Source of the DNA: Rhodocyclaceae bacterium
GTDB lineage: Bacteria; Pseudomonadota; Gammaproteobacteria; Burkholderiales; Rhodocyclaceae
Assembly (NCBI GenBank): GCA_013388985.1
Contig: JACAEF010000052.1
Location: 1 to 64,000, forward strand
DNA length: 64,000 nt
Reading direction: 5' to 3'
In this document: piece by piece, positions 10,461 to 40,308 of the stretch
Position numbering within the stretch: position 1 is the first letter of the stretch
How the letters are laid out: each line of letters begins with the position of its first letter
Notes under the pieces: generated by a model
Told to the model about the DNA's origin: nothing
What the model saw: only the letters and a program-made list of their open reading frames with translations
The model's database searches: none
Position numbers and translations under genes: made by a program

Positions 10461-11924
10461 TCAATCGGACGAAGTCGGCGCTGGCGGGAATGAGGACGTC
10501 CCGCCGGGCGCCTCCTCGCTTCGTAAAGTCGGCGCTGGCGGGAATGAGGACGTCCCGCCGGGCGCCTCCTCGCTTCGTAAAGTCGGCGCTGGCGGGACGG
10601 CACCCTCGGCGTCTTCCACGGTTTTTTTCGCGCGCCGGCGACGGCGCTTCTTCGCGCCGGCGGTTTCGGGTTTCAGCATCGCTTCGCGGCTGGCGTTGTC
10701 GGCATCGGCGAAAGCGGCCCACCAGTCGGCCAGTTCCTGCGGCGCCTCGCCGCTTTCCGCGCGCAGGCGCAGGAAGTCCCAGGCGGCGCGAAAGCGGGGC
10801 TGCTCGACGAGACGGAACGGCGCGCGTCCCGCCCGTTTCTCGAAGCGTGGCTGCAAGAGCCAGATTTCCTTGATGTCGCCGATGATGCGGCGCGTGATGG
10901 CGAGCTTTTCCGCCTGGGTGTCGAGCACTTCGTCCATCGCCGCATGCAGCGCCGGCATGGCATGTTCGCCGCGCTGCTTGCGCGCTTCCCAGTTGGCGAG
11001 CACCTCGTGCCAGAGCAGCGTGGCGAACAGGAAGCCCGGCGAGGTGCGCTTGCCTTCCCGCACGCGCCGGTCGGTATCCGCCAGCGAGAGCATGACGAAT
11101 CTTTCACCTAGCGGCTGTTCGAGGATCACGTCCAGGAGCGGCAGCAGGCCGTGGTGCAGACCCTCTTCGCGCAGGCGCTTCAAGCATTCGACGGCATGGC
11201 CCGAGAACAGGAGCTTGAGCATCTCGTCGAACAGACGCGCGGCCGGCACGTTCTCGATCAGCTCGGCCATCTCGCGGATCGGCGCCTGCACGGTCGGGTC
11301 CATGCGCAAGTCGAGCTTGGCCGAGAGCCGCACGGCGCGCAGCATGCGCACCGGATCCTCGCGGTAGCGCGCGCGCGGGTCGCCGATCATGCGCAAGGTC
11401 TTTCGCTGCAGGTCGCGCACGCCGTGGTGGTAGTCGAACACCTGCTGCGTCGCCGGGTCGTAGTAGAGCGCGTTGATCGTGAAGTCGCGGCGCGCGGCAT
11501 CCTCTTCCATCGTGCCCCAGACGTTGTCGCGCAGCACGCGGCCGTGTTCGTCCTTGAGCGTGCTCTCATCGTGGGCGGCGCGGAAGGTGGAGACCTCGAG
11601 GGTCTCGGCGCCCTGGAGCACATGGACGATCTGGAAGCGCCGGCCGATGATGCGGGCGCGGCGAAAGAGCGCGCGCACCTGTTCCGGCGTGGCATCGGTG
11701 GCGACGTCGAAATCCTTGGGAACGATGCCGGCGATCAGGTCGCGCACCGCGCCGCCGACCACATAGGCCTTGAAGCCCGCCTGCTGCAGGGTGTCGACGG
11801 TGCGGCGTGCGCCGGGTGAGACCTGTTCCGGACGGATGCCATGACGTTCCGGTCCGATGATCTCGACCGGGTGGGGTGTCGGTTCGCCGCGCTTGAAGAC
11901 GCGGCGCAATAGCTTGCGGATCAT
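10461..11924 (-). CDS. pcnB: Poly(A) polymerase I
   Basis: A 487-residue class II nucleotidyltransferase that adds 3' poly(A) tails and so targets RNA for decay. The catalytic region near residue 57 reads GGAVRDLIAG followed by KDFDVATDATPEQV, with the acidic metal ligands. The RNA-binding arm follows. The basic KKRRRRRAKK stretch near 435 is normal for PcnB, but the last ~50 residues are a repeat tract in which an 18-residue unit beginning PPAPTLRSEEAP occurs twice, followed by a partial third unit. This tail is made by the dispersed repeat plus its spacer and is probably unstructured. Confidence 0.95.
   Translation of the reverse strand: MIRKLLRRVFKRGEPTPHPVEIIGPERHGIRPEQVSPGARRTVDTLQQAGFKAYVVGGAVRDLIAGIVPKDFDVATDATPEQVRALFRRARIIGRRFQIVHVLQGAETLEVSTFRAAHDESTLKDEHGRVLRDNVWGTMEEDAARRDFTINALYYDPATQQVFDYHHGVRDLQRKTLRMIGDPRARYREDPVRMLRAVRLSAKLDLRMDPTVQAPIREMAELIENVPAARLFDEMLKLLFSGHAVECLKRLREEGLHHGLLPLLDVILEQPLGERFVMLSLADTDRRVREGKRTSPGFLFATLLWHEVLANWEARKQRGEHAMPALHAAMDEVLDTQAEKLAITRRIIGDIKEIWLLQPRFEKRAGRAPFRLVEQPRFRAAWDFLRLRAESGEAPQELADWWAAFADADNASREAMLKPETAGAKKRRRRRAKKTVEDAEGAVPPAPTLRSEEAPGGTSSFPPAPTLRSEEAPGGTSSFPPAPTSSD
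10472..10605 (-). repeat. 54-bp tandem array carrying three copies of the dispersed repeat (pcnB 3' end)
   Basis: Three cores containing GTCGGCGCTGGCGGGA start at 10474, 10528 and 10582, so the period is exactly 54 bp (18 codons) and keeps the pcnB frame. The unit includes an inner hairpin, GGCGGGA/TCCCGCC around a 9-nt loop. The copy nearest the pcnB core ends with the canonical CGGCACC; the other two have the spacer instead. The pattern is local tandem duplication of an inserted element. Confidence 0.9.
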
Positions 11925-11946
11925 TGCCTGGAGAGCGGCATCGAAG

Positions 11947-12333
11947 TCAGACGAAAATCACCATCTCGCCGTAGCGTGCGATTTGCGCATCGTGGGAGAG
12001 CAGCCGCATCGGCTCGGTCGTGGCCTGGGCGACGAGCAGACGGTCGAAAGGGTCGGCATGCAGCGTGGGCAGGCCTTCCACGGCCTGGGCGTGTCGCCAG
12101 CTGACCGGCAGCTCGCGATAACCGGCTTCGGCGCACAGTTCGGCGGCACGCACGCCGGAGATCGGCATGTCGCCGCGACCGAGGGCGTGCTTGATCGCGA
12201 TCTCCCAGATCGTCGCGGTGCTGACGAAGACATCGTTGGCCGGATCGCGAATCAACCCTTCGGCCAGGCTGGGCAGGCGCGGCGAGCCGGCGAGCGCCCA
12301 GAGCACGATGTGGGTGTCGAGCAAGAGCCGCAC
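11947..12333 (-). CDS. vapC: PIN-domain toxin, VapC-like
   Basis: A 128-residue PIN-domain ribonuclease. The N-terminal LLLDTHIVLWAL carries the first catalytic Asp, VSTATIWEIAIK carries the Glu, and HADPFDRLLVAQA carries the later Asp residues; this is the common type-II toxin subfamily paired with Phd antitoxins. It starts with GTG, 3 nt after the antitoxin stop, so the two are translationally linked. All acidic residues appear intact. The pair sits between the HAD gene and pcnB on the same strand. Confidence 0.9.
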   Translation of the reverse strand: MRLLLDTHIVLWALAGSPRLPSLAEGLIRDPANDVFVSTATIWEIAIKHALGRGDMPISGVRAAELCAEAGYRELPVSWRHAQAVEGLPTLHADPFDRLLVAQATTEPMRLLSHDAQIARYGEMVIFV

Positions 12334-30908: not shown

Positions 30909-30932
30909 AAAAAAAACCCCGCCGCAGCGGGG
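30909..30932 (-). terminator. Terminator of the flavocytochrome operon
   Basis: On the minus strand the hairpin CCCCGC-TGCG-GCGGGG (30917-30932) is followed by TTTTTTTT. It lies 23 nt after the fccB-like stop codon. Confidence 0.9.
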
Positions 30933-30954
30933 TTCGTTTGGGGCAAGTAGAAGA

Positions 30955-32262
30955 TCAGGTCGACATTTCGGTGAGGATGTTCCTGAGCCAGCTCTTGGCG
31001 TAGGTCGCTTCCGTCTTGACCATCGACCAGTCGGCAGGGGAAACGCCGCCCGAGTTGGGTACCGCGATGATCTGGCCATCCTTCGAGGCATACACCGCCG
31101 CGACGCTGATGGCTTCGCCTTCGGTGATGTAGCTGTAGCAGGTGTTGATGCCGGAAAGCGGCGTGACCGGCCGGCCGTTCATCAGATTGACGATGTTGGT
31201 CGCGCAGACCTTCGCCTCGGAGTTCGCGGAATAGCCGGATTTCGGCATCGCGCCGGCGATCGAGGCGTCGCCGATGACGTGGATGTCCTTTTGCTTCGTC
31301 GACTCGAAGGTGTCGGCATTGATCGGGCACCATTTCTTGTCGTCGCCGACCAGGCCGGCCTGCACCGCGATGTTCGCGGCACGTTGCGGCGGGATCAGGT
31401 TGACGACGTCGCCCTTGACTTCGTCGATGCCCTCGATCAGCACGGCCTTGCCGGCGGCATTGATCGCGGTGACCTTCGCGGCCTTGCGATAGTCGATGAT
31501 GCCCTTGTAGTGCATGTCCCAGCCTTTGCGGAACAGCGGGCCCTTCGAGGCGATGTCCGGGTTGGCATCGACGACGATGATCTTCGACTTCGGCTTGTGC
31601 TGCTTCAGATAATGGGCGATCATGCTGGTGCGCTCGTAAGGCCCGGGGGGGCAACGGAACGGCGCCAACGGCACCGTGAGCACCACCGTGCCGCCATCCT
31701 TCATCGCTTCGAGCTGCTTGCGCAACAACACGGTCTGCGGGCCGGCCTTCCAGGCGTGCGGCATGATTTCCGGCGTCTGCGCGTTGTAGCCTTCGATTTC
31801 CTCGGTGCGGAAGTCGATGCCCGGGGAGATGACCAGACGGTCGTATTTCAGCGTGCCCTTCGAGGTGACGACGGTATGCGCGGCCGGGTCGATGGCGGTG
31901 ACCTCGGCTTGCACGAACTTGATGCCATGATTGGCGACGAGCTTGTCGTATTTGATGGTCAGCGAGGAGAGGTCGGGCAGGATGCCGCCGATATAGAGGT
32001 TGGAGAACGGGCAGGAAACGAAGTGGTCGTTGCGCTCGACCAGCACCACCTCGATGCTTGGATCCATCATGCGGATGTACTTGGCGGCGATGGTGCCGCC
32101 ATAGCCGCCGCCGACGACGACGACGCGGCGGGCCGAGCCCTTCGGCATGATTTCGGCGGCCGAGCCGGCGGAGACGGCCGGACCTTGCGTAGCGCAGCCG
32201 GCCAGCGCCAGGCTGGAGGCGCCGCCCATGAGCTTGATGAAGTTTCTGCGATCCAGTGTCAT
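30955..32262 (-). CDS. fccB: FCSD-type FAD-dependent sulfide dehydrogenase flavoprotein (FccB-like)
   Basis: A 435-residue flavoprotein. It has a Tat motif DRRNFIK and a lipobox-like LAGC, then the FAD-binding GGGYGGTIAAKYI near residue 50. The two cysteines that form the redox disulfide of flavocytochrome c are in place: APFRCPPGPYER near 204 and GINTCYSY near 370, within the C-terminal FCSD domain. The enzyme probably oxidises sulfide to sulfur or polysulfide and passes electrons to the cytochrome next door. It is the last gene of a four-gene cytochrome operon and is followed by a terminator. Confidence 0.92.
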   Translation of the reverse strand: MTLDRRNFIKLMGGASSLALAGCATQGPAVSAGSAAEIMPKGSARRVVVVGGGYGGTIAAKYIRMMDPSIEVVLVERNDHFVSCPFSNLYIGGILPDLSSLTIKYDKLVANHGIKFVQAEVTAIDPAAHTVVTSKGTLKYDRLVISPGIDFRTEEIEGYNAQTPEIMPHAWKAGPQTVLLRKQLEAMKDGGTVVLTVPLAPFRCPPGPYERTSMIAHYLKQHKPKSKIIVVDANPDIASKGPLFRKGWDMHYKGIIDYRKAAKVTAINAAGKAVLIEGIDEVKGDVVNLIPPQRAANIAVQAGLVGDDKKWCPINADTFESTKQKDIHVIGDASIAGAMPKSGYSANSEAKVCATNIVNLMNGRPVTPLSGINTCYSYITEGEAISVAAVYASKDGQIIAVPNSGGVSPADWSMVKTEATYAKSWLRNILTEMST

Positions 32263-32275
32263 GTTCCGTCCTCCC

Positions 32276-32857
32276 TTATTTGTTCACGCTGGCGTAGAAG
32301 TGGAGCAGGGCATCCAGGTCTTCCTTGGACAAGGGCTTCACTTTCTCGGCCATCTTCTCCGGCATCTTGCGCTTGCCGGACTGGTAGAGTTCCATCTGCA
32401 TCTGCAGGTAGGGCAGCCACTGGCTCGCCATCACCGGCGTATCGTCCTTGCCATCCTTGCCGTCGTCGAGATGGCAGCGCGAGCAGTTGGCTTCCTGCAG
32501 CTCGGCGCCTTTCTTCGCCTTGGCGGCATCGACCTGCTGATGGGTGAAATGCAGCTTCTGCTTGGAGAAGAACTCGCCGAGCTGGTCGATCTGCTGGTCG
32601 GTGTAACCCTTCGCCAAGCGACCCATGATGCTGGAGGGGCGCTCGCCGCTCCTGAATTTTTTCATCGCTTCGACGATCGCCGTCTTCGATTGCGCGGCCA
32701 GGCTCGGCATCGTCAGGCCGGCGCTGCCGCCGTGCGTGCCGTGGCAACCGGCGCAGGCATTCGCCAGCATCGCCGCGCCCGGGTCGGCGGCGAGAGCCGT
32801 CGCCGAGATCGTCAGGGCGCCTGTGAGCAGGGCCCAACCACTCCATCGTTGCTTCAT
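32276..32857 (-). CDS. Dihaem cytochrome c, class I (c4/FccA-like)
   Basis: A 193-residue periplasmic protein with a signal peptide (cleavage near TALA). Two haem-attachment motifs, CAGCH near residue 35 and CSRCH near 128, divide it into two similar domains as in cytochrome c4 and the FccA subunit. Methionines suited as axial ligands are present. It starts 13 nt before the FccB-like gene and is its probable electron acceptor and membrane-complex partner. It could also be a free c4-type cytochrome. Confidence 0.88.
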   Translation of the reverse strand: MKQRWSGWALLTGALTISATALAADPGAAMLANACAGCHGTHGGSAGLTMPSLAAQSKTAIVEAMKKFRSGERPSSIMGRLAKGYTDQQIDQLGEFFSKQKLHFTHQQVDAAKAKKGAELQEANCSRCHLDDGKDGKDDTPVMASQWLPYLQMQMELYQSGKRKMPEKMAEKVKPLSKEDLDALLHFYASVNK

Positions 32858-32909
32858 CGCTTTCTCCTCCTGTGAAGAAAATAGAACTGCCGGTGCTGCT
32901 TCCCCTGTG

Positions 32910-33833
32910 TTACTGCTTCACGACGTTGTAGTAGTACTTGACACCCTCGACCGTCTTGTCGAGGCCGAACTGATAGTTGAGCGAAACATAGTGATAGCGT
33001 GCCTCGGCGCCGCCGTCGTGCAGCGCGAAGCCGAAGTCGTAGATCTTGCCCGGCTCGATCTTGTGGTCGCCCGTGCCGCCGCCGGCCAGCGCCCGCGTGA
33101 AGGTGACGACCCACTTGTTGCCGTCCTTCTTGCCCTCGGCCTTGACGAGGCCCTTGCCGCCTTCCATCACGCGCTTGTCGGCGATGTAGCCATCGACCGG
33201 TTTTTCACCCTTGCCGCTTCGCCACTGGATCAGGTCCATGAACTTGCCGCCGTCGAGCGCCCCGCCTTTGATGTATTTGGTCTTCTTGTCGTCCTTGGCC
33301 TCTTTCATCGAGCGCAGGTCGTTGTGGCAGGTGACCCAGCAGCCGGCACGCTCGGCCAGTTCGATCGCCGGCGCGCCACCGTCGGGGAAGCCGCCATCGA
33401 ACATCATCGCCAGCTTGACCTCGTTCTTCTTGTCCATGCCAAAGCTGCCACCCTTGGGCTGCTCCCATTCGACGCGCACGTAGAGGTTCTGATCGTCATG
33501 CGTCATCTTGAAGCTGGCGGGTACCCAGCCGGCGCGGTCGGCGATCGGCTTGGGCTCGAGCTGCGTCTTCGAGTTGCCCGCCGGGCTGCCCTTGATGATC
33601 TTGTCGCCGACTTCGTTGGCATCGCCTTCGTGGCATTTCGAGCAGGCGCGCTTCTTGTCGACGATGTCGGGCACGGCCGAATGATCGGCCTTGTTCATGA
33701 TCCATTCGAGACCGGATTGGCCAGGATAAAAGAGTTTGATCTTGCGTTCGGTCACCTTGCTCCAGTCGGGCTCGGCGGCACCCGCGGCTCCGGCGACGAA
33801 CACACCCATTACAGCGAAAGCGATCTTTTTCAT
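32910..33833 (-). CDS. Periplasmic haem protein with ethylbenzene-dehydrogenase-type (EB_dh) domain
   Basis: A 307-residue exported protein (signal peptide cleaved near GAA). One CXXCH motif, CSKCH near residue 64, binds covalent haem. A second unusual CX3CH, CWVTCH, lies near 169. The C-terminal part contains beta strands of the EB_dh haem-binding domain type (PF09459), which resembles the gamma subunit of ethylbenzene dehydrogenase. It probably relays electrons between the NapC-type and FccA-like proteins. The operon gives no catalytic molybdenum subunit, so it is not itself an ethylbenzene dehydrogenase. Confidence 0.8.
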   Translation of the reverse strand: MKKIAFAVMGVFVAGAAGAAEPDWSKVTERKIKLFYPGQSGLEWIMNKADHSAVPDIVDKKRACSKCHEGDANEVGDKIIKGSPAGNSKTQLEPKPIADRAGWVPASFKMTHDDQNLYVRVEWEQPKGGSFGMDKKNEVKLAMMFDGGFPDGGAPAIELAERAGCWVTCHNDLRSMKEAKDDKKTKYIKGGALDGGKFMDLIQWRSGKGEKPVDGYIADKRVMEGGKGLVKAEGKKDGNKWVVTFTRALAGGGTGDHKIEPGKIYDFGFALHDGGAEARYHYVSLNYQFGLDKTVEGVKYYYNVVKQ

Positions 33834-33876
33834 CTGACGTGACTCCTTCTCCGATTACTCTAGGGATATCGATTCC

Positions 33877-34521
33877 TCAACCTTCCGTCTTCTCGCCACC
33901 TTGCTGCTTGAGCTGTTCCAGGTATTCCTTGGGCAGGTGGTGGGAAACGCCCTTGTGGCATTCGATGCAGGTCTTGCCGTCTTCGACCGCGCCTTCATGC
34001 TTGACCGCCGCGCGATCCTTCTGCTTGTCCGGGTCCATGTATTTGAAGTCGTGGCAATTGCGGCATTCCTTCGAGTTGCGCTCCTTCATGCGATCCCAGA
34101 CGCGCTGCGCCATCGTGTAGCGGTGCGCTTCGAATTTTTCCGGCGTATCGACCGTGCCTTTGATGTGGCCGATGACGTCGCGGGCGGCGAGGAGTTTCTG
34201 GAACGCCTTGAACATGTAATCGGTCGGCGTCTTGCTGCTGGCGACATGACAGTCGGCGCATTGGGCGGCGGCGCCGCTGCGGTTCTTGTAGTGTGCCGTC
34301 TGCTTGAGCTCGTTGAAGGGGATCTGCATCTCATGGCAGGAAATGCAGAAATCCGAGCGGTTGGTGTATTCCATGCCCATGTTGAGACCGCCCCAGATGA
34401 TGATGCCGCCGAGCACGCCGATCACGATCATGCGCAGCATCGAACATTTGGGCGGGTTTTTCAGGCGGTCGATCAGGCTATTGTTTTCGTTTTCCGGCTT
34501 GCTGTCTTGAATGTCGGCCAT
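33877..34521 (-). CDS. NapC/NirT-family membrane-anchored tetrahaem cytochrome c
   Basis: A 214-residue protein. It has a cytoplasmic N-tail, one transmembrane helix (about residues 30-49) and a periplasmic domain with four CXXCH sites: CISCH, CADCH, CRNCH and CIECH. This is the NapC/NirT/CymA layout, which takes electrons from quinol and feeds periplasmic reductases, or the reverse. It is the first clear gene of the napC-EB_dh-fccA-fccB unit, with 43 nt to the next gene. Confidence 0.93.
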   Translation of the reverse strand: MADIQDSKPENENNSLIDRLKNPPKCSMLRMIVIGVLGGIIIWGGLNMGMEYTNRSDFCISCHEMQIPFNELKQTAHYKNRSGAAAQCADCHVASSKTPTDYMFKAFQKLLAARDVIGHIKGTVDTPEKFEAHRYTMAQRVWDRMKERNSKECRNCHDFKYMDPDKQKDRAAVKHEGAVEDGKTCIECHKGVSHHLPKEYLEQLKQQGGEKTEG

Positions 34522-34542
34522 CGTCGCATCTTCCTTGGCACA

Positions 34543-34632
34543 TCATCGAAGGGTGGTCGGAAGATCGCATGACGGACGCATGAACAGCATGCACTGCGTC
34601 CAGGCCAGGAAACCTGGTATTGCCCCCGCCAT
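34543..34632 (-). CDS. Possible 29-residue peptide upstream of the napC-type gene
   Basis: An ATG at 34632 follows a very strong GGAGGAGG ribosome site by five bases and opens a 29-codon frame beginning MAGAIPGFLAWTQCMLFM. It ends 21 nt before the NapC-type start. The middle is hydrophobic. It could be a small membrane subunit or a leader peptide, or noise. No homologue is known to me. Confidence 0.35.
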   Translation of the reverse strand: MAGAIPGFLAWTQCMLFMRPSCDLPTTLR

Positions 34633-34691
34633 GAAACCTCCTCCGTCTTTTGTTATTCCATGTGTATTCCACATGGCTGTTCGTGCGGAAT

Positions 34692-34719
34692 TATTACAGG
34701 GTCGGTGGCGAGGATCAAG
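34692..34719 (-). promoter_or_regulatory. Possible sigma-70 promoter of the napC-fcc operon
   Basis: The minus strand has TTGATC, a 16-nt spacer and TAATAA. It lies 60-90 nt before the short peptide and the NapC-type gene. Confidence 0.45.
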
Positions 34720-34828
34720 AGGTTTTATCAAACTATTTCTTGTATCAATACATTATGAAATGCTAATTCACTCGGCGCTCCGCTTTCATTCGCGGAAGGG
34801 GCTTTTGGGGGATGGTGGAACACTTGTC

Positions 34829-34873
34829 GTGCCGCCCCGCCAGCGCCGACTTTCCGAAGCGAGTCGGCGCCGG
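34829..34873 (+). repeat. Dispersed repeat, extended intergenic copy
   Basis: The core GTGCCGCCCCGCC then AGCGCCGACTTT continues into CCGAAGCGAG and a reverse CGGCGCC, so GCGCCGAC and GTCGGCGC form an 8-bp perfect stem. It lies 14 nt downstream of the malate synthase gene in antisense orientation, the only intergenic copy not in sense orientation to a flanking gene. Confidence 0.8.
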
Positions 34874-34886
34874 CGATCGGGGCGAT

Positions 34887-36497
34887 TTACTCCATCGCCT
34901 CGTAAAGCGGCAGGGTGAGGAACTCGGGGAAATCCTCGGCGAGCGACATCTGCTCGAAGATCTTCGCCGCCTGGTCGTAGGTCTCGGTCTTCTCGCCGTT
35001 GGCGCTGACCGTCGCCTTCACCTTGGCGAGCTCCTCGGGAATCATCGCCTTGACCATCTCGGCGGTGATCTTCTCGCCGGCGCGGGGGCCTTCCGAGATC
35101 ACGCCCTTGGGCGAGCGCACCCACTGCCAGACTTGCGAGCGGCTGATCTCGGCGGTGGCGGCGTCTTCCATCAGGTTGTGGATCGGCACGCAGCCGTTGC
35201 CGGCGAGCCACGAACCCAGGTAGTGGATGCCGACGTTGATGTTGTTCCGCAGGCCCGCCTCGGTGATGGGCTTTTCCGGGCCGAAATCGAGCCAGTCCTT
35301 GGGGCCGAATTGTCCTTCGACCTGCTTGTCCCACTGGTTGGGTTTGTCGCCGAGCACGGCCTTGAACTCTTCCATCGCGATGGCGACGAGGCCCGGATGG
35401 GCGACCCAGCCGCCGTCGTAGCCGTCGTTGGCGTCGCGGCGCTTGTCGTGGCGGATGCCGGCCAGGGCCTTCTCGTTCGCCTCGGGATCGTTCTTGATCG
35501 GAATGAGGGCGCTCATGCCGCCGATCGCCGGCGCGCCGCGTTTGTGGCAGGCCTGCACGAGTGCGAGCGCATAGGCGCGCATGAAGGGCACTTCCATGTT
35601 GATGACGGCGCGGTTGGCCAGACAAAAATCCTTGTTGCGCTTGAACTTCTTGATGGCGCTGAAGATGTAGTCCCAGCGGCCGGCGTTTAGGCCGGCGCTG
35701 TGCTCGCGCAGTTCGTAGAGGATTTCTTCCATCTCGAAGGTGGCCAAAATCGTTTCCACTAAGACGGTGGCCTTGATGGTGCCGCGCGGCAAGCCGATGT
35801 GATCCTGCGCCATGCAGAAGATGTCGTTCCACAGCCGCGCTTCGAGATGCGATTCCATCTTCGGCAGGTAGTAGAAGGGGCCGGCGCCGCGCGCGACCTG
35901 CTCCTTGGCGTTGTGGAAGAACACGAGAGCAAAATCGAAGATGCCGCCCGAGACGCGCTGGCCGTCGACCGTGACGTGCTTCTCGTCGAGATGCCAGCCG
36001 CGCGGACGGATTTGCAAGGTGGCGATCTTGTCGTTGAGCTTGTATTCCTTGCCGGCTTCGTTGGTGTAGGTGATTTGCCGGCGGATCGCATCAAAGAGAT
36101 TGACCTGGCCCTGGATCTGGTTGAACCAGTTCGGGCTGTTCGAATCCTCGAAGTCGGTCATGTAGGAATCCGCGCCCGAGTTGAAGGCGTTGATGATCAT
36201 CTTGCGCTCGACCGGGCCGGTGATCTCGACGCGGCGGCAGTGGAGCGCCGGCGGCAAGGGCGCGATCTTCCAGTCGCCCTCGCGGATGTGCTTCGTCTCG
36301 GGCAGGAAGTCCGGCATCTCGCCGGCATCGATCTTCGCCTGGCGCTCGATGCGTTTTTTCAGGAGTTCCTGGCGGCGCGGCTCGAAGGCACGGTGCAGCT
36401 TGGCGACGAATGCGAGCGCGTCATGGGTGAGAATCTCGTCGAAACGGGGATGGATCGGGGCGTGGATTTCCACGCCGGCAGGCAGGGTGAGGCTCAT
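34887..36497 (-). CDS. aceB: Malate synthase A
   Basis: A 536-residue enzyme that condenses glyoxylate and acetyl-CoA to malate in the glyoxylate shunt. It starts MSLTLPAGVEIHAPIHPRF and contains MIINAFNSGADSYMTDFEDSNSP and IRPRGWHLDEKHV near residue 160, both typical of the A isoform. The length also fits the A form. The gene is single; a 14-bp site shared with isocitrate lyase lies 35 nt upstream. Confidence 0.96.
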   Translation of the reverse strand: MSLTLPAGVEIHAPIHPRFDEILTHDALAFVAKLHRAFEPRRQELLKKRIERQAKIDAGEMPDFLPETKHIREGDWKIAPLPPALHCRRVEITGPVERKMIINAFNSGADSYMTDFEDSNSPNWFNQIQGQVNLFDAIRRQITYTNEAGKEYKLNDKIATLQIRPRGWHLDEKHVTVDGQRVSGGIFDFALVFFHNAKEQVARGAGPFYYLPKMESHLEARLWNDIFCMAQDHIGLPRGTIKATVLVETILATFEMEEILYELREHSAGLNAGRWDYIFSAIKKFKRNKDFCLANRAVINMEVPFMRAYALALVQACHKRGAPAIGGMSALIPIKNDPEANEKALAGIRHDKRRDANDGYDGGWVAHPGLVAIAMEEFKAVLGDKPNQWDKQVEGQFGPKDWLDFGPEKPITEAGLRNNINVGIHYLGSWLAGNGCVPIHNLMEDAATAEISRSQVWQWVRSPKGVISEGPRAGEKITAEMVKAMIPEELAKVKATVSANGEKTETYDQAAKIFEQMSLAEDFPEFLTLPLYEAME

Positions 36498-36609: not shown

Positions 36610-37911
36610 TCAATGGCTTCCAGGCAGGAAAATCGCCCGGAAGTCATTGACGTTGGTGCGGGTCGGGCCGGTAACGATCAACTGGTCGAGGGCGGCGAAG
36701 AAGCCATAGCCGTCGTTGTCGGCGAGAAAGTCGGCGCTGGCGAGACGGCACATGGCGGCGCGTTCGTGCACGTCCGGGCCGAACCAGGCGCCGGCATTGT
36801 CTTCGGTGCCGTCGATGCCGTCGGTATCACAGGCGAGCGCCCATGCAGGCACGTCGAGCACATGCGCGAGTGCGAGCAGAAACTCGGTATTGCGGCCGCC
36901 GCGGCCGTTGCCCTTGACCGTCACCGTGGTTTCGCCGCCCGAAAGGATCACGCACGGTTTGGGTGTCGGCTCGTCGTAATGGTGAATCTGCCGCGCGATC
37001 GCCGCATGGACGTAGGCGACGTCGCGCGCCTCGCCTTCGATCGTATCGCCGAGCACCAGCGGCGCGACGCCTTGTTGACGGGCGAAGGCGGCGGCTGCCT
37101 GCAGCGCCTGCTGCGCGGTGGCGATGACACGGGTTTGGCAGTGTGCGAGCCGCGGATCGCCGGGCTTGGGCGTTTCGGCGGCGGAACTTTCGAGCCATTC
37201 GCGCACATGGCGCGGTATCCCGATTCCGTAGCGGGCGAGGACGGCGAGTGCCTCCTCGCGCGTCGTCGGATCGGCCACCGTCGGGCCGGAGGCGAGCGCG
37301 GAGGGATCGTCGCCGGGAATATCGGAAATGCCCAGCGTGACGACGCGCGCCGGCGCGCAGGCCAGTGCGAGCCGCCCACCCTTGATCGCGGAGAGGTGCT
37401 TCCTCACGCAGTTCATCTCGTGGATGTCGGCGCCGCTCTTCAGCAGCGCACGATTGATGGCCTGCTTGTCGGCGAGCGTGAGGCCGGGCGCGGGCAGGGC
37501 CAGGAGCGCCGAGCCGCCGCCCGAGATCAGGCACAACACGAGATCGTCGGCCGTCAGTCCACGGACGAGATCGAACATCCGCCGCGCCGCCCGCTGGCCG
37601 GCGGCATCGGGCACCGGATGGGCAGCCTCGAAGACCTCGATGCGCGATGTCGGCGCGCCATGGCCGTAGCGTGTCACGACCATTCCAGACAGCGGGGCGT
37701 CGGCCGGCCAGTGCGCTTCGACCGCCGCTGCCATCGCCGCTGCGGCCTTGCCCGCGCCGACGACGACCGTCTTGCCCTTGGGCGGCTTGGGCAGATGCTG
37801 GGGCACGCAGACGGAAGGGGCGACCGCGGCGAGCGCCGCATCGAAGAGATGGCGCAGAAAGATTGCCGGATTGCCGACCAATGACGCTGACGTGATTGCG
37901 GGACTCGTCAT
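36610..37911 (-). CDS. Glycerate 2-kinase, MOFRL family
   Basis: A 433-residue kinase that phosphorylates glycerate from ATP. The N-terminal DUF4147-type domain has VVVGAGKAAAAMAAAVEA near residue 51 and CLISGGGSALLALPAPG near 122; the C-terminal MOFRL domain has the LSGGETTVTVKGNGRGGRN motif near 320. It links glyoxylate and tartronate metabolism to glycolysis. I use MTSPAITSA; the 686-residue ORF is a read-through into the LysR gene's antisense. One repeat copy sits in a C-terminal loop as CRLASADF. Confidence 0.92.
   Translation of the reverse strand: MTSPAITSASLVGNPAIFLRHLFDAALAAVAPSVCVPQHLPKPPKGKTVVVGAGKAAAAMAAAVEAHWPADAPLSGMVVTRYGHGAPTSRIEVFEAAHPVPDAAGQRAARRMFDLVRGLTADDLVLCLISGGGSALLALPAPGLTLADKQAINRALLKSGADIHEMNCVRKHLSAIKGGRLALACAPARVVTLGISDIPGDDPSALASGPTVADPTTREEALAVLARYGIGIPRHVREWLESSAAETPKPGDPRLAHCQTRVIATAQQALQAAAAFARQQGVAPLVLGDTIEGEARDVAYVHAAIARQIHHYDEPTPKPCVILSGGETTVTVKGNGRGGRNTEFLLALAHVLDVPAWALACDTDGIDGTEDNAGAWFGPDVHERAAMCRLASADFLADNDGYGFFAALDQLIVTGPTRTNVNDFRAIFLPGSH
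36727..36751 (-). repeat. Dispersed 25-bp repeat, in-gene copy (glycerate kinase)
   Basis: The minus strand reads GTGCCGTCTCGCC then AGCGCCGACTTT, sense to the gene and in the hda-type frame, giving CRLASADF. Confidence 0.75.
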
Positions 37912-37998
37912 GTCCCGCAGCCTACAAGTTCTTGCTGGACAAGAAAAGACATTGGATGGCAATTGATTGTTGCAAAATTGGCAAAAAGGAGTGCCGGG

Positions 37999-38898
37999 AT
38001 GGATCGACTCAAATTGATGGAAACCTTCGTCGCAGTGAGCCAACGAGGCAGCCTGACGGCCGCGGCGAGCGCCGAGGGCGTGGCGCCGGCGGTGATCAGC
38101 CGCCGCCTGGACGCGCTGGAAGCGCATCTCGGCGTCCGGTTGATGGTGCGGACGACACGAAAGATCACGCTGACGTTCGAAGGCAATGCGTTTCTGGAGG
38201 ACTGTCAGCGCATCCTGCGGGAATTGGACGATGCGGAGGCTGCCGTCTCCCAGGGAAGCGCGCGGGTGAGCGGCTATCTGCGCGTGACGGCGCCCGCCGG
38301 CTTCGGCCGCAAGCACGTCGCACCCTTGCTGCGCGAATTCCTGCGCGCGCATGCCGAGGTTTCCGCCAGCCTCGATCTTTCGGACCGCAGCGTCGATCTC
38401 GTCGGCGAAGGGTTCGATTGTGCCGTCAGGCTCGGCGGACTGGTCGATTCGAGCCTCGTCGCGGTAAGGCTTGGCGAGATGAAGCGCGTCGTCGTCGGCA
38501 GTCCGTCGTATTTCCAGCAGCACGGCGTGCCGCGCACGCTCGATGACTTGGCCGGCCATGTCTGCCTGGCGCTGCCCACGCAGGCGGGCTGGGATTTTTC
38601 GGTCGAGGGGCGTCCCGTGCTCTTCAAGCCCGTCGGACGCTTTACCTGCAACGATGGCGCGGTGCTGCACGAATGGGCGCTGGCCGGCATGGGGCTGGCA
38701 TGGCGCTCATTGTGGGAGGTGGGCGAGGATCTGCGCTGGGGGCGACTCGTGTCGGTGCTCGACGACTATGCCGCCGCCCCGGTGGGCATCCACGCGGTGT
38801 TTCCGCAGCGCCGCCATCTGCCGCTGCGCGTGCGGCTGTTCGTCGATCTCCTGAAGGAAAACTACGGCCGGCCCGATTATTGGGACAACGCGGAATAG
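37999..38898 (+). CDS. LysR-family transcriptional regulator
   Basis: A 299-residue regulator. The N-terminal winged helix begins MDRLKLMETFVAVSQRGSLTAAA and is followed by ISRRLDALEAHLGVRLMVRTTR; the remainder is a substrate-binding-like effector domain (LRVTAPAGFGRKHVAPLL). The start has an AAGGAG ribosome site. It is divergent from the glycerate kinase gene (87-nt gap) and may control it, or the aceA/aceB palindromes, though LysR sites usually have a T-N11-A layout. Confidence 0.9.
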   Translation: MDRLKLMETFVAVSQRGSLTAAASAEGVAPAVISRRLDALEAHLGVRLMVRTTRKITLTFEGNAFLEDCQRILRELDDAEAAVSQGSARVSGYLRVTAPAGFGRKHVAPLLREFLRAHAEVSASLDLSDRSVDLVGEGFDCAVRLGGLVDSSLVAVRLGEMKRVVVGSPSYFQQHGVPRTLDDLAGHVCLALPTQAGWDFSVEGRPVLFKPVGRFTCNDGAVLHEWALAGMGLAWRSLWEVGEDLRWGRLVSVLDDYAAAPVGIHAVFPQRRHLPLRVRLFVDLLKENYGRPDYWDNAE

Positions 38899-38997: not shown

Positions 38998-40308
38998 TCA
39001 GTGAAACTGCTCCTCCTCCGTCGAACCCGTCAGCGCCTTGACGCTGGAGGATCCGCCCTGGATCACGGTGGTGACGTCGTCGAAATAGCCGGCGCCGACC
39101 TCCTGCTGGTGGGCGACGAAGGTGTAGCCCTTCTCGCGCGCGGCGAATTCGGGCTCCTGCACCATATCGACATAGTGCATCATGCCGGCGCCACGGGCGT
39201 AGGCATGCGCGAACTGGAAGGTGTTGAACCAGTTGATGTGGATGCCGGCCAGCGTGATGAACTGATACTTGTAGCCCAGCGCCGAGAGCTCGTCCTGGAA
39301 GGTGGCGATGGTCTTGTCGTCGAGATTCTTCTTCCAGTTGAACGAGGGCGAGCAGTTGTAGGCCAGGAGCTTGCCGGGGCATTCTTTCAGCACGGCCTGG
39401 GCGAACTCGCGCGCAAAGCCGAGATCGGGCGTGCCGGTCTCGCACCAGACGAGGTCGGCATAAGGCGCGTAGGAGACGCCGCGGGAAATCGCCTGCTCCA
39501 GGCCATTCCTGACGCGGTAGAAGCCTTCCTGGGTACGCTCGCCGGTCAGGAAAGGACGATCGCGTTCGTCATGGTCGGAAGTCAGCAGGTTCGCGGCCTC
39601 GGCGTCGGTGCGGGCGAGCACGATGGTCGGCACTCCCATCACGTCGGCGGCGAAGCGCGCGGCGATCAGCTTTTCGATCGCTTCCTGCGTCGGCACCAGC
39701 ACCTTGCCGCCCATGTGGCCGCACTTCTTGACGGCGGCGAGCTGATCCTCGAAATGCACGCCGGCGGCGCCGGCGGCGATCATGTTCTTCATCAGTTCGA
39801 AGGCGTTGAGCACGCCGCCGAAGCCCGCCTCGGCGTCGGCGACGATCGGCAGGAAGTAGTCGATGTAACCCTCGTCGCCGGGGCCGATGCCGCGGCTCCA
39901 CTGGATCTCGTCGGCACGCTTGAAGGTGTTGTTGATGCGGCGCACCATGGTCGGCACCGAGTCGTAGGCGTAGAGCGACTGGTCCGGATACATGGTCTCG
40001 GAGGTGTTGCCGTCGGCGGCGACCTGCCAGCCGGACAGATACACCGCTTCGAGCCCGGCCTTGGCCTGCTGCATCGCCTGGCCGGCGGTGATGGCGCCGA
40101 AGGCGTTTACATAGCCTTTTTTGGCCTCGCCGTTGATCAGGCGCCAGAGTTTTTCGGCGCCGCGGCGGGCGAGCGTGTATTCGATCTGCACGGAGCCGCG
40201 CAAGCGCACGACATCCTCGGCGGAATAGCCACGCTTGACGCCTTTCCAGCGGGGATTTTCATTCCAGTCCTTTTCCAGGGCGGCGATTTGGGTTTGGCGA
40301 TCGGTCAT
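38998..40308 (-). CDS. aceA: Isocitrate lyase
   Basis: A 436-residue enzyme that splits isocitrate to glyoxylate and succinate. The catalytic motif [13 protein letters not shown] is present near residue 195, and the segments [22 protein letters not shown] and [14 protein letters not shown] are standard. It acts with aceB at 34887. The promoter and an operator-like palindrome lie just upstream, and a terminator follows. Confidence 0.98.

Follow-up and report, generated by a model that had tools for sequence, protein, structure and literature searches.

The flavocytochrome c sulfide dehydrogenase (FCSD) FccAB is generally regarded as working by itself, feeding soluble cytochrome c; in the usual picture FCSD feeds cytochrome c and sulfide:quinone oxidoreductase (SQR) feeds quinone, and the energy yield credited to each follows from this. 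The membrane cytochrome pair of NirT, a tetrahaem protein, and NirB, the dihaem cytochrome c-552, belongs to nitrite respiration. Its genes are transcribed together with nirS in Pseudomonas stutzeri (PMC8954225), and a fused NirTB is known in Halomonas (PMC13086519). Here we describe a locus that joins these two systems, nirT–nirB–fccA–fccB (nirTB–fccAB), carried by a Rhodocyclaceae bacterium (assembly GCA_013388985.1) on the first 64,000 nucleotides of contig JACAEF010000052.1, hereafter the window. NirTB and FccAB are each known already; what appears to be new is their joint operon. No description of a NapC/NirT protein combined with fccB or flavocytochrome c as one operon was found in the open-access literature, and two comparative papers on sulfur oxidisers mention, in the passages found, fccAB alone. 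Because the fccAB genes come after a dedicated nirT–nirB copy, the arrangement suggests that sulfide electrons may reach membrane quinones by NirTB, besides soluble cytochrome c.

With the NirT–NirB of nirS operons (in Stutzerimonas, and on contig C146 of the same genome), the window pair shares the two protein families, their order, both NirB-type haem motifs and the occurrence of fusions, but it is linked to fccAB, falls in a separate tree group and has Asp for Glu at NapC position 115, with a short insert before it. The adjoining FccAB resembles that of Allochromatium vinosum (1fcd, 3vrd) in having both subunits at full length, the cysteine that links flavin adenine dinucleotide (FAD), the redox cysteine pair and two FccA haems, and differs in coming after nirTB. 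The NirB-like protein has a fold in common with EbdC of ethylbenzene dehydrogenase (2ivf_C) and NxrC of the anammox nitrite oxidoreductase (7b04_C); unlike these, it has two covalent haem motifs, a NirT partner and no molybdopterin subunit. ImoA, which occurs with the Mto pathway of Fe(II) oxidisers, is likewise a NapC/NirT protein proposed to pass periplasmic electrons into the quinone pool, although the donor in the window would be FCSD through the NirB-type protein, and ImoA has been shown only to oxidise quinol.

A conserved, lineage-restricted putative operon

Four consecutive, closely spaced genes occupy the minus strand from 34521 to 30955 in the order nirT–nirB–fccA–fccB (Table 1), with intergenic gaps of 43, 52 and 13 bp. 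Inspection by eye places a purine-rich ribosome-binding site ahead of each of the nirB-like gene, fccA and fccB. The tight spacing on one strand, these ribosome-binding sites and a hairpin with a T tract at the end are together good evidence that the four genes form a single operon and would be cotranscribed.

A scan of named species genomes returned 80 loci, four of them linked to nirS (L156, L157, L158, L160) and 76, from other genomes and nearly all from metagenome-assembled ones, of the fcc type. The four-gene order was complete in 71 of these 76, the remaining five (L083, L110, L131, L144, L146) being cut by contig ends; none of the 76 showed a contradicting order, and one (L149) has fccB split over two frames. 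Gene order is conserved far beyond chance, and an earlier note on this DNA was right to treat the four genes as one unit. By record title, the fcc-type loci belong to Rhodocyclaceae, Sulfuritalea, Sulfurisoma, Candidatus Nitricoxidireducens and Thiobacillus, with further loci in Comamonadaceae (including Rhodoferax), Gallionellaceae, an Azoarcus bin and Candidatus Desulfobacillus denitrificans; the order thus recurs in sulfur-oxidising betaproteobacteria, where the note had proposed to look for it.

The gene for the NirB-like protein, which carries the Pfam name EB_dh, was present in 17 of 18 other genomes of the window's genus. Among 151 sampled genomes of the family, the fcc-type pair occurred in 22, and in all 22 fccB lay 628–737 bp beyond the EB_dh gene. 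A sample of 323 genomes from across the class contained FccB (threshold E<=1e-85) in 94, and the fcc-type NirTB pair only in the window's own genome. FccAB is a common enzyme, and nirTB–fccAB is a variant of it that is confined to certain lineages and strictly kept there.

Table 1. Positions in the window of the nirTB–fccAB genes, their flanking signals and the genes upstream.
Feature	Positions	Strand	Length	Basis or description
nirT/napC-like gene, membrane-anchored tetrahaem cytochrome, fcc-type subfamily	33877..34521	-	214 aa	PF03264 7.3e-65
nirB-like gene, EB_dh-fold dihaem cytochrome	32910..33833	-	307 aa	PF09459 5e-31
fccA, dihaem cytochrome subunit of flavocytochrome c	32276..32857	-	193 aa	3vrd_A 4.3e-41, 1fcd_C 7.4e-40
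fccB, flavoprotein subunit of flavocytochrome c sulfide dehydrogenase	30955..32262	-	435 aa	PF21706 8e-45, PF09242 8e-19
Intrinsic-terminator-like hairpin	30914..30935	-		GC-rich 9-pair stem, 4-nt loop, TTTTT tail; directly 3' of fccB
Intergenic region upstream of operon, presumed promoter	34522..34886	-		sigma-70-like match at 34718-34690
Malate synthase	34887-36497			judged by sequence only
Glycerate-kinase-like gene	36610-38670			judged by sequence only
Isocitrate lyase	38998-40308			judged by sequence only

A dedicated NirT–NirB pair

The earlier note had regarded the EB_dh protein as being without a strict catalytic partner, a view that the comparison with nirS operons does not bear out. 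The protein has a signal-peptide-like N-terminus and two haem motifs (CSKCH at 64, CWVTCH at 165), and the combination of CxxCH with the unusual CX3CH (CWxTCH) recurs in 75/75 unfused fcc-type and 23/23 nir-type NirB-like proteins. On contig C146 of the same genome, a nirS operon encodes in one direction a cd1-like protein, NirS, NirT, an EB_dh protein, a dihaem protein resembling c4, and NirF, the genes being named by their sequence and order; its EB_dh protein is 52% identical to that of the window. With its EB_dh fold, two covalent haem motifs and nirT neighbour, the window protein is a dihaem cytochrome of the NirB type, a name taken from gene context and the literature; such a protein normally pairs with NirT rather than with a molybdopterin subunit. 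We call it a paralogue of NirB, and not NirB, because it stands beside fccAB and the nirS-linked copy is on C146. The Pfam name is explained by the predicted structure (predicted local distance difference test, pLDDT, 83.5), the fold of which still matches EbdC and NxrC. No gene for a molybdopterin alpha or Fe–S beta subunit occurs in the operon, and the protein scores 17.5 bits against TIGR03477, below the cut-off of 169.85. An orphan molybdoenzyme subunit was considered and rejected, given the paralogue in the nirS operon, the two haem motifs and an operon free of molybdoenzyme genes. The NirB-type EB_dh protein would instead be a portable partner of NirT, serving different periplasmic enzymes.

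Two side observations concern relatives of these proteins. The cd1-like protein ahead of NirS in the C146 operon (L054:12409-14346, G000:C146) is a second one of its kind, has an N-terminal cytochrome c motif and is probably NirN-like. Other Gammaproteobacteria have open frames of 900–1000 codons with two tandem EB_dh/NirB-like stretches, not near fccB (G264:C1:658199-659701, G276:C159, G470:C89, G384:C20), which are perhaps longer multi-haem fusions.

In a NirB tree (104 rows) and a NirT tree (93 rows), both quick trees without bootstrap in which some genomes appear twice through two overlapping collections, one branch parts the fcc-linked from the nirS-linked proteins, each time with a Shimodaira–Hasegawa-like approximate likelihood ratio test (SH-aLRT) value of 100%. 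From this split we take the fcc-linked NirTB to be a dedicated version of the pair, with a clade of its own. Of the 80 named loci, 20 encode NirT and NirB as a single polypeptide; these fusions are confined to one Sulfuritalea-centred clade, whose sole ‘separate’ member (L144) is a contig fragment, and they are strong evidence that the two proteins would work as a complex.

The NirT-like protein combines the N-terminal membrane helix of the NirT/NapC family (residues 26–54 in the model of a fused relative) with four CxxCH motifs (CISCH 59, CADCH 88, CRNCH 153, CIECH 185), which are kept in 94/94 relatives. It is thus a PF03264 tetrahaem protein of a sort able in principle to link FCSD with the quinone pool, as the earlier note had proposed. 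Relative to NirT and NapC, the fcc-type proteins show fixed differences at P68, Y102 and D115 and an insert of ~5 residues at about 94–98, before the helix bearing D115. This Asp is invariant in 79/79 fcc-type proteins, in contrast to Glu in 14/14 nir-type proteins and in the NapC of the same genome, and it aligns with Asp89 of NrfH, a residue of the menaquinol site of that protein. D115 and the insert hint at a retuned quinone pocket, and the fcc-linked NirT may react with quinone.

FccAB, the predicted sulfide-oxidising part

The catalytic half of the operon appears to be a normal FccAB. The FccB protein matches solved structures over a range of 8e-122 to 5e-108 (5n1t_A 8e-122, 1fcd_A 1e-110, 3vrd_B) and keeps its catalytic residues, which agrees with the earlier note's interpretation: C84 in 92/93, C204 in 93/93 and C375 in 92/93 sequences. 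From alignment to the A. vinosum enzyme we take C84 to be the FAD-linking cysteine and C204 with C375 to be the redox pair. The haem subunit adjoins it; its matches to 3vrd_A and 1fcd_C span residues 25–190, the full length, and its two CxxCH motifs are kept in 94/95 relatives. It is FccA proper rather than a generic c4. With these features FccAB is a predicted sulfide dehydrogenase.

Several FccB-related genes lie outside the operon. In the same genome a second FccB-like protein, 42% identical (L161:6742-8145, G000:C6, match 10822-12075), adjoins type II secretion-like genes and has no visible FccA gene next to it; inspected by eye, it has Asn at the position of the FAD-cysteine (TSNIMSNL) and retains the cysteine of RCPPGPYER, and its function is possibly different. 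One genome of the same genus has a second, more divergent fccAB placed head-to-head with the nirTB–fccAB operon and without a nirTB of its own (L038:2563-4570). In many relatives, though not in the window, a dihaem c4-like gene lies just downstream of fccB on the opposite strand, convergent to it (L037, L038, L045, L104, L111, L116, L119, L122, L137); it resembles the c4-like gene of the nirS operon and is a possible further electron carrier.

Proposed electron route and its rivals

The genome encodes dsrA, soxB, two RuBisCO large subunits, a nap operon, a nirS operon and an SQR that closely resembles solved structures of this enzyme (3sz0_A, 4e-163), and the host is most likely an autotrophic sulfur-oxidising denitrifier. 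SQR was found in 18 of the 22 FccB genomes with the fcc-type pair, as opposed to 24 of the 73 other FccB genomes (Fisher p=6e-5, the genomes being related and thus non-independent). Because SQR is commoner among them, the carriers look like genuine sulfide oxidisers. A role for nirTB–fccAB as a general substitute for SQR was rejected, since both the window's genome and most carriers have SQR.

We put at roughly even the chance that the four genes encode a membrane-tethered FCSD which passes sulfide electrons via NirTB to ubiquinone. FccB would oxidise sulfide at its disulfide/FAD centre and hand the electrons to the two FccA haems; the NirB-type dihaem protein would accept them from FccA and pass them to the NirT/NapC-type tetrahaem protein of the inner membrane, which would reduce ubiquinone, giving a periplasmic sulfide-to-quinone route alongside SQR. 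This route could feed bc1, support CO2 fixation through reverse electron flow to NADH, and supply nitrate/nitrite respiration. Physical association of NirTB with FccAB, its reactivity towards quinone and the direction of electron flow are inferred; with sulfide/S0 at about -0.27 V and ubiquinone at about +0.1 V, passage from sulfide to ubiquinone is downhill, which favours this direction over the reverse. More tentatively, and slightly short of an even chance, the dedicated NirTB paralogue would be a quinone reductase and FCSD a periplasmic sulfide:quinone oxidoreductase of several subunits, in which a NapC-family protein would work opposite to the direction shown for its relatives. If true, an FCSD with a built-in quinone link would change the energy yield assigned to sulfide oxidation by this enzyme in Sulfuritalea, Thiobacillus, Gallionellaceae and relatives, and nirTB–fccAB would offer a clean test of a NapC-family protein as quinone reductase in vivo.

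Several points weigh against this route. The NapC/NirT proteins tested so far oxidise quinol, among them the NirT-like ImoA of Sideroxydans, which does so in Shewanella and for which a quinone-reductase role is proposed but unproven (PMC9600427). FccA could bypass NirTB and reduce soluble cytochrome c, as it does elsewhere, and the frequency of SQR among the carriers would make a second sulfide-to-quinone route partly redundant. For a natural NirTB fusion, the AlphaFold model (pLDDT 69.7, predicted template modelling score, pTM, 0.60) is too weak for judging docking.

The strongest rival, which we nonetheless consider unlikely, is that NirTB runs in the usual way, from quinol to the periplasm, so that NirTB and FccAB would be co-expressed, independent inputs to one periplasmic cytochrome pool feeding NirS or cytochrome c oxidase, with no contact needed between them. 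NirT has been placed as an electron donor towards NirS (PMC13086519), the quinol oxidation by ImoA (PMC9600427) fits the same direction, and the host has both nap and nirS operons. However, those operons already supply the genome with a NapC and a separate NirTB, and the fcc-linked pair is a distinct group that stands beside fccAB and, in the loci read, beside nirS in none.

Less probable again is that NirTB keeps FccAB redox-active, by activating the flavin/disulfide centre reductively or by protecting it, much as NirT has been proposed to activate cytochrome cd1 in work cited in PMC13086519. Most FccAB manage without the pair, as the class-wide sample shows. Reverse operation, which the earlier note had allowed for and in which quinol, by way of NirTB and FccAB, would reduce zero-valent sulfur or polysulfide to sulfide, is highly improbable: NapC-family proteins do oxidise quinol, and flavocytochrome c has been reported to reduce elemental sulfur in vitro, but the host has dsrA, soxB and SQR, and the step from ubiquinol to S0/HS- runs several hundred mV uphill, making the reaction thermodynamically unlikely with ubiquinone.

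Upstream region

The upstream neighbour of the operon, judged by sequence to be malate synthase, ends 365 bp from the nirT-like gene. The sigma-70-like match in the intervening region is weak (9/12 consensus), the region holding two matches where 0.9 are expected. Together the genes upstream make up a glyoxylate-shunt neighbourhood; the genome also has RuBisCO.

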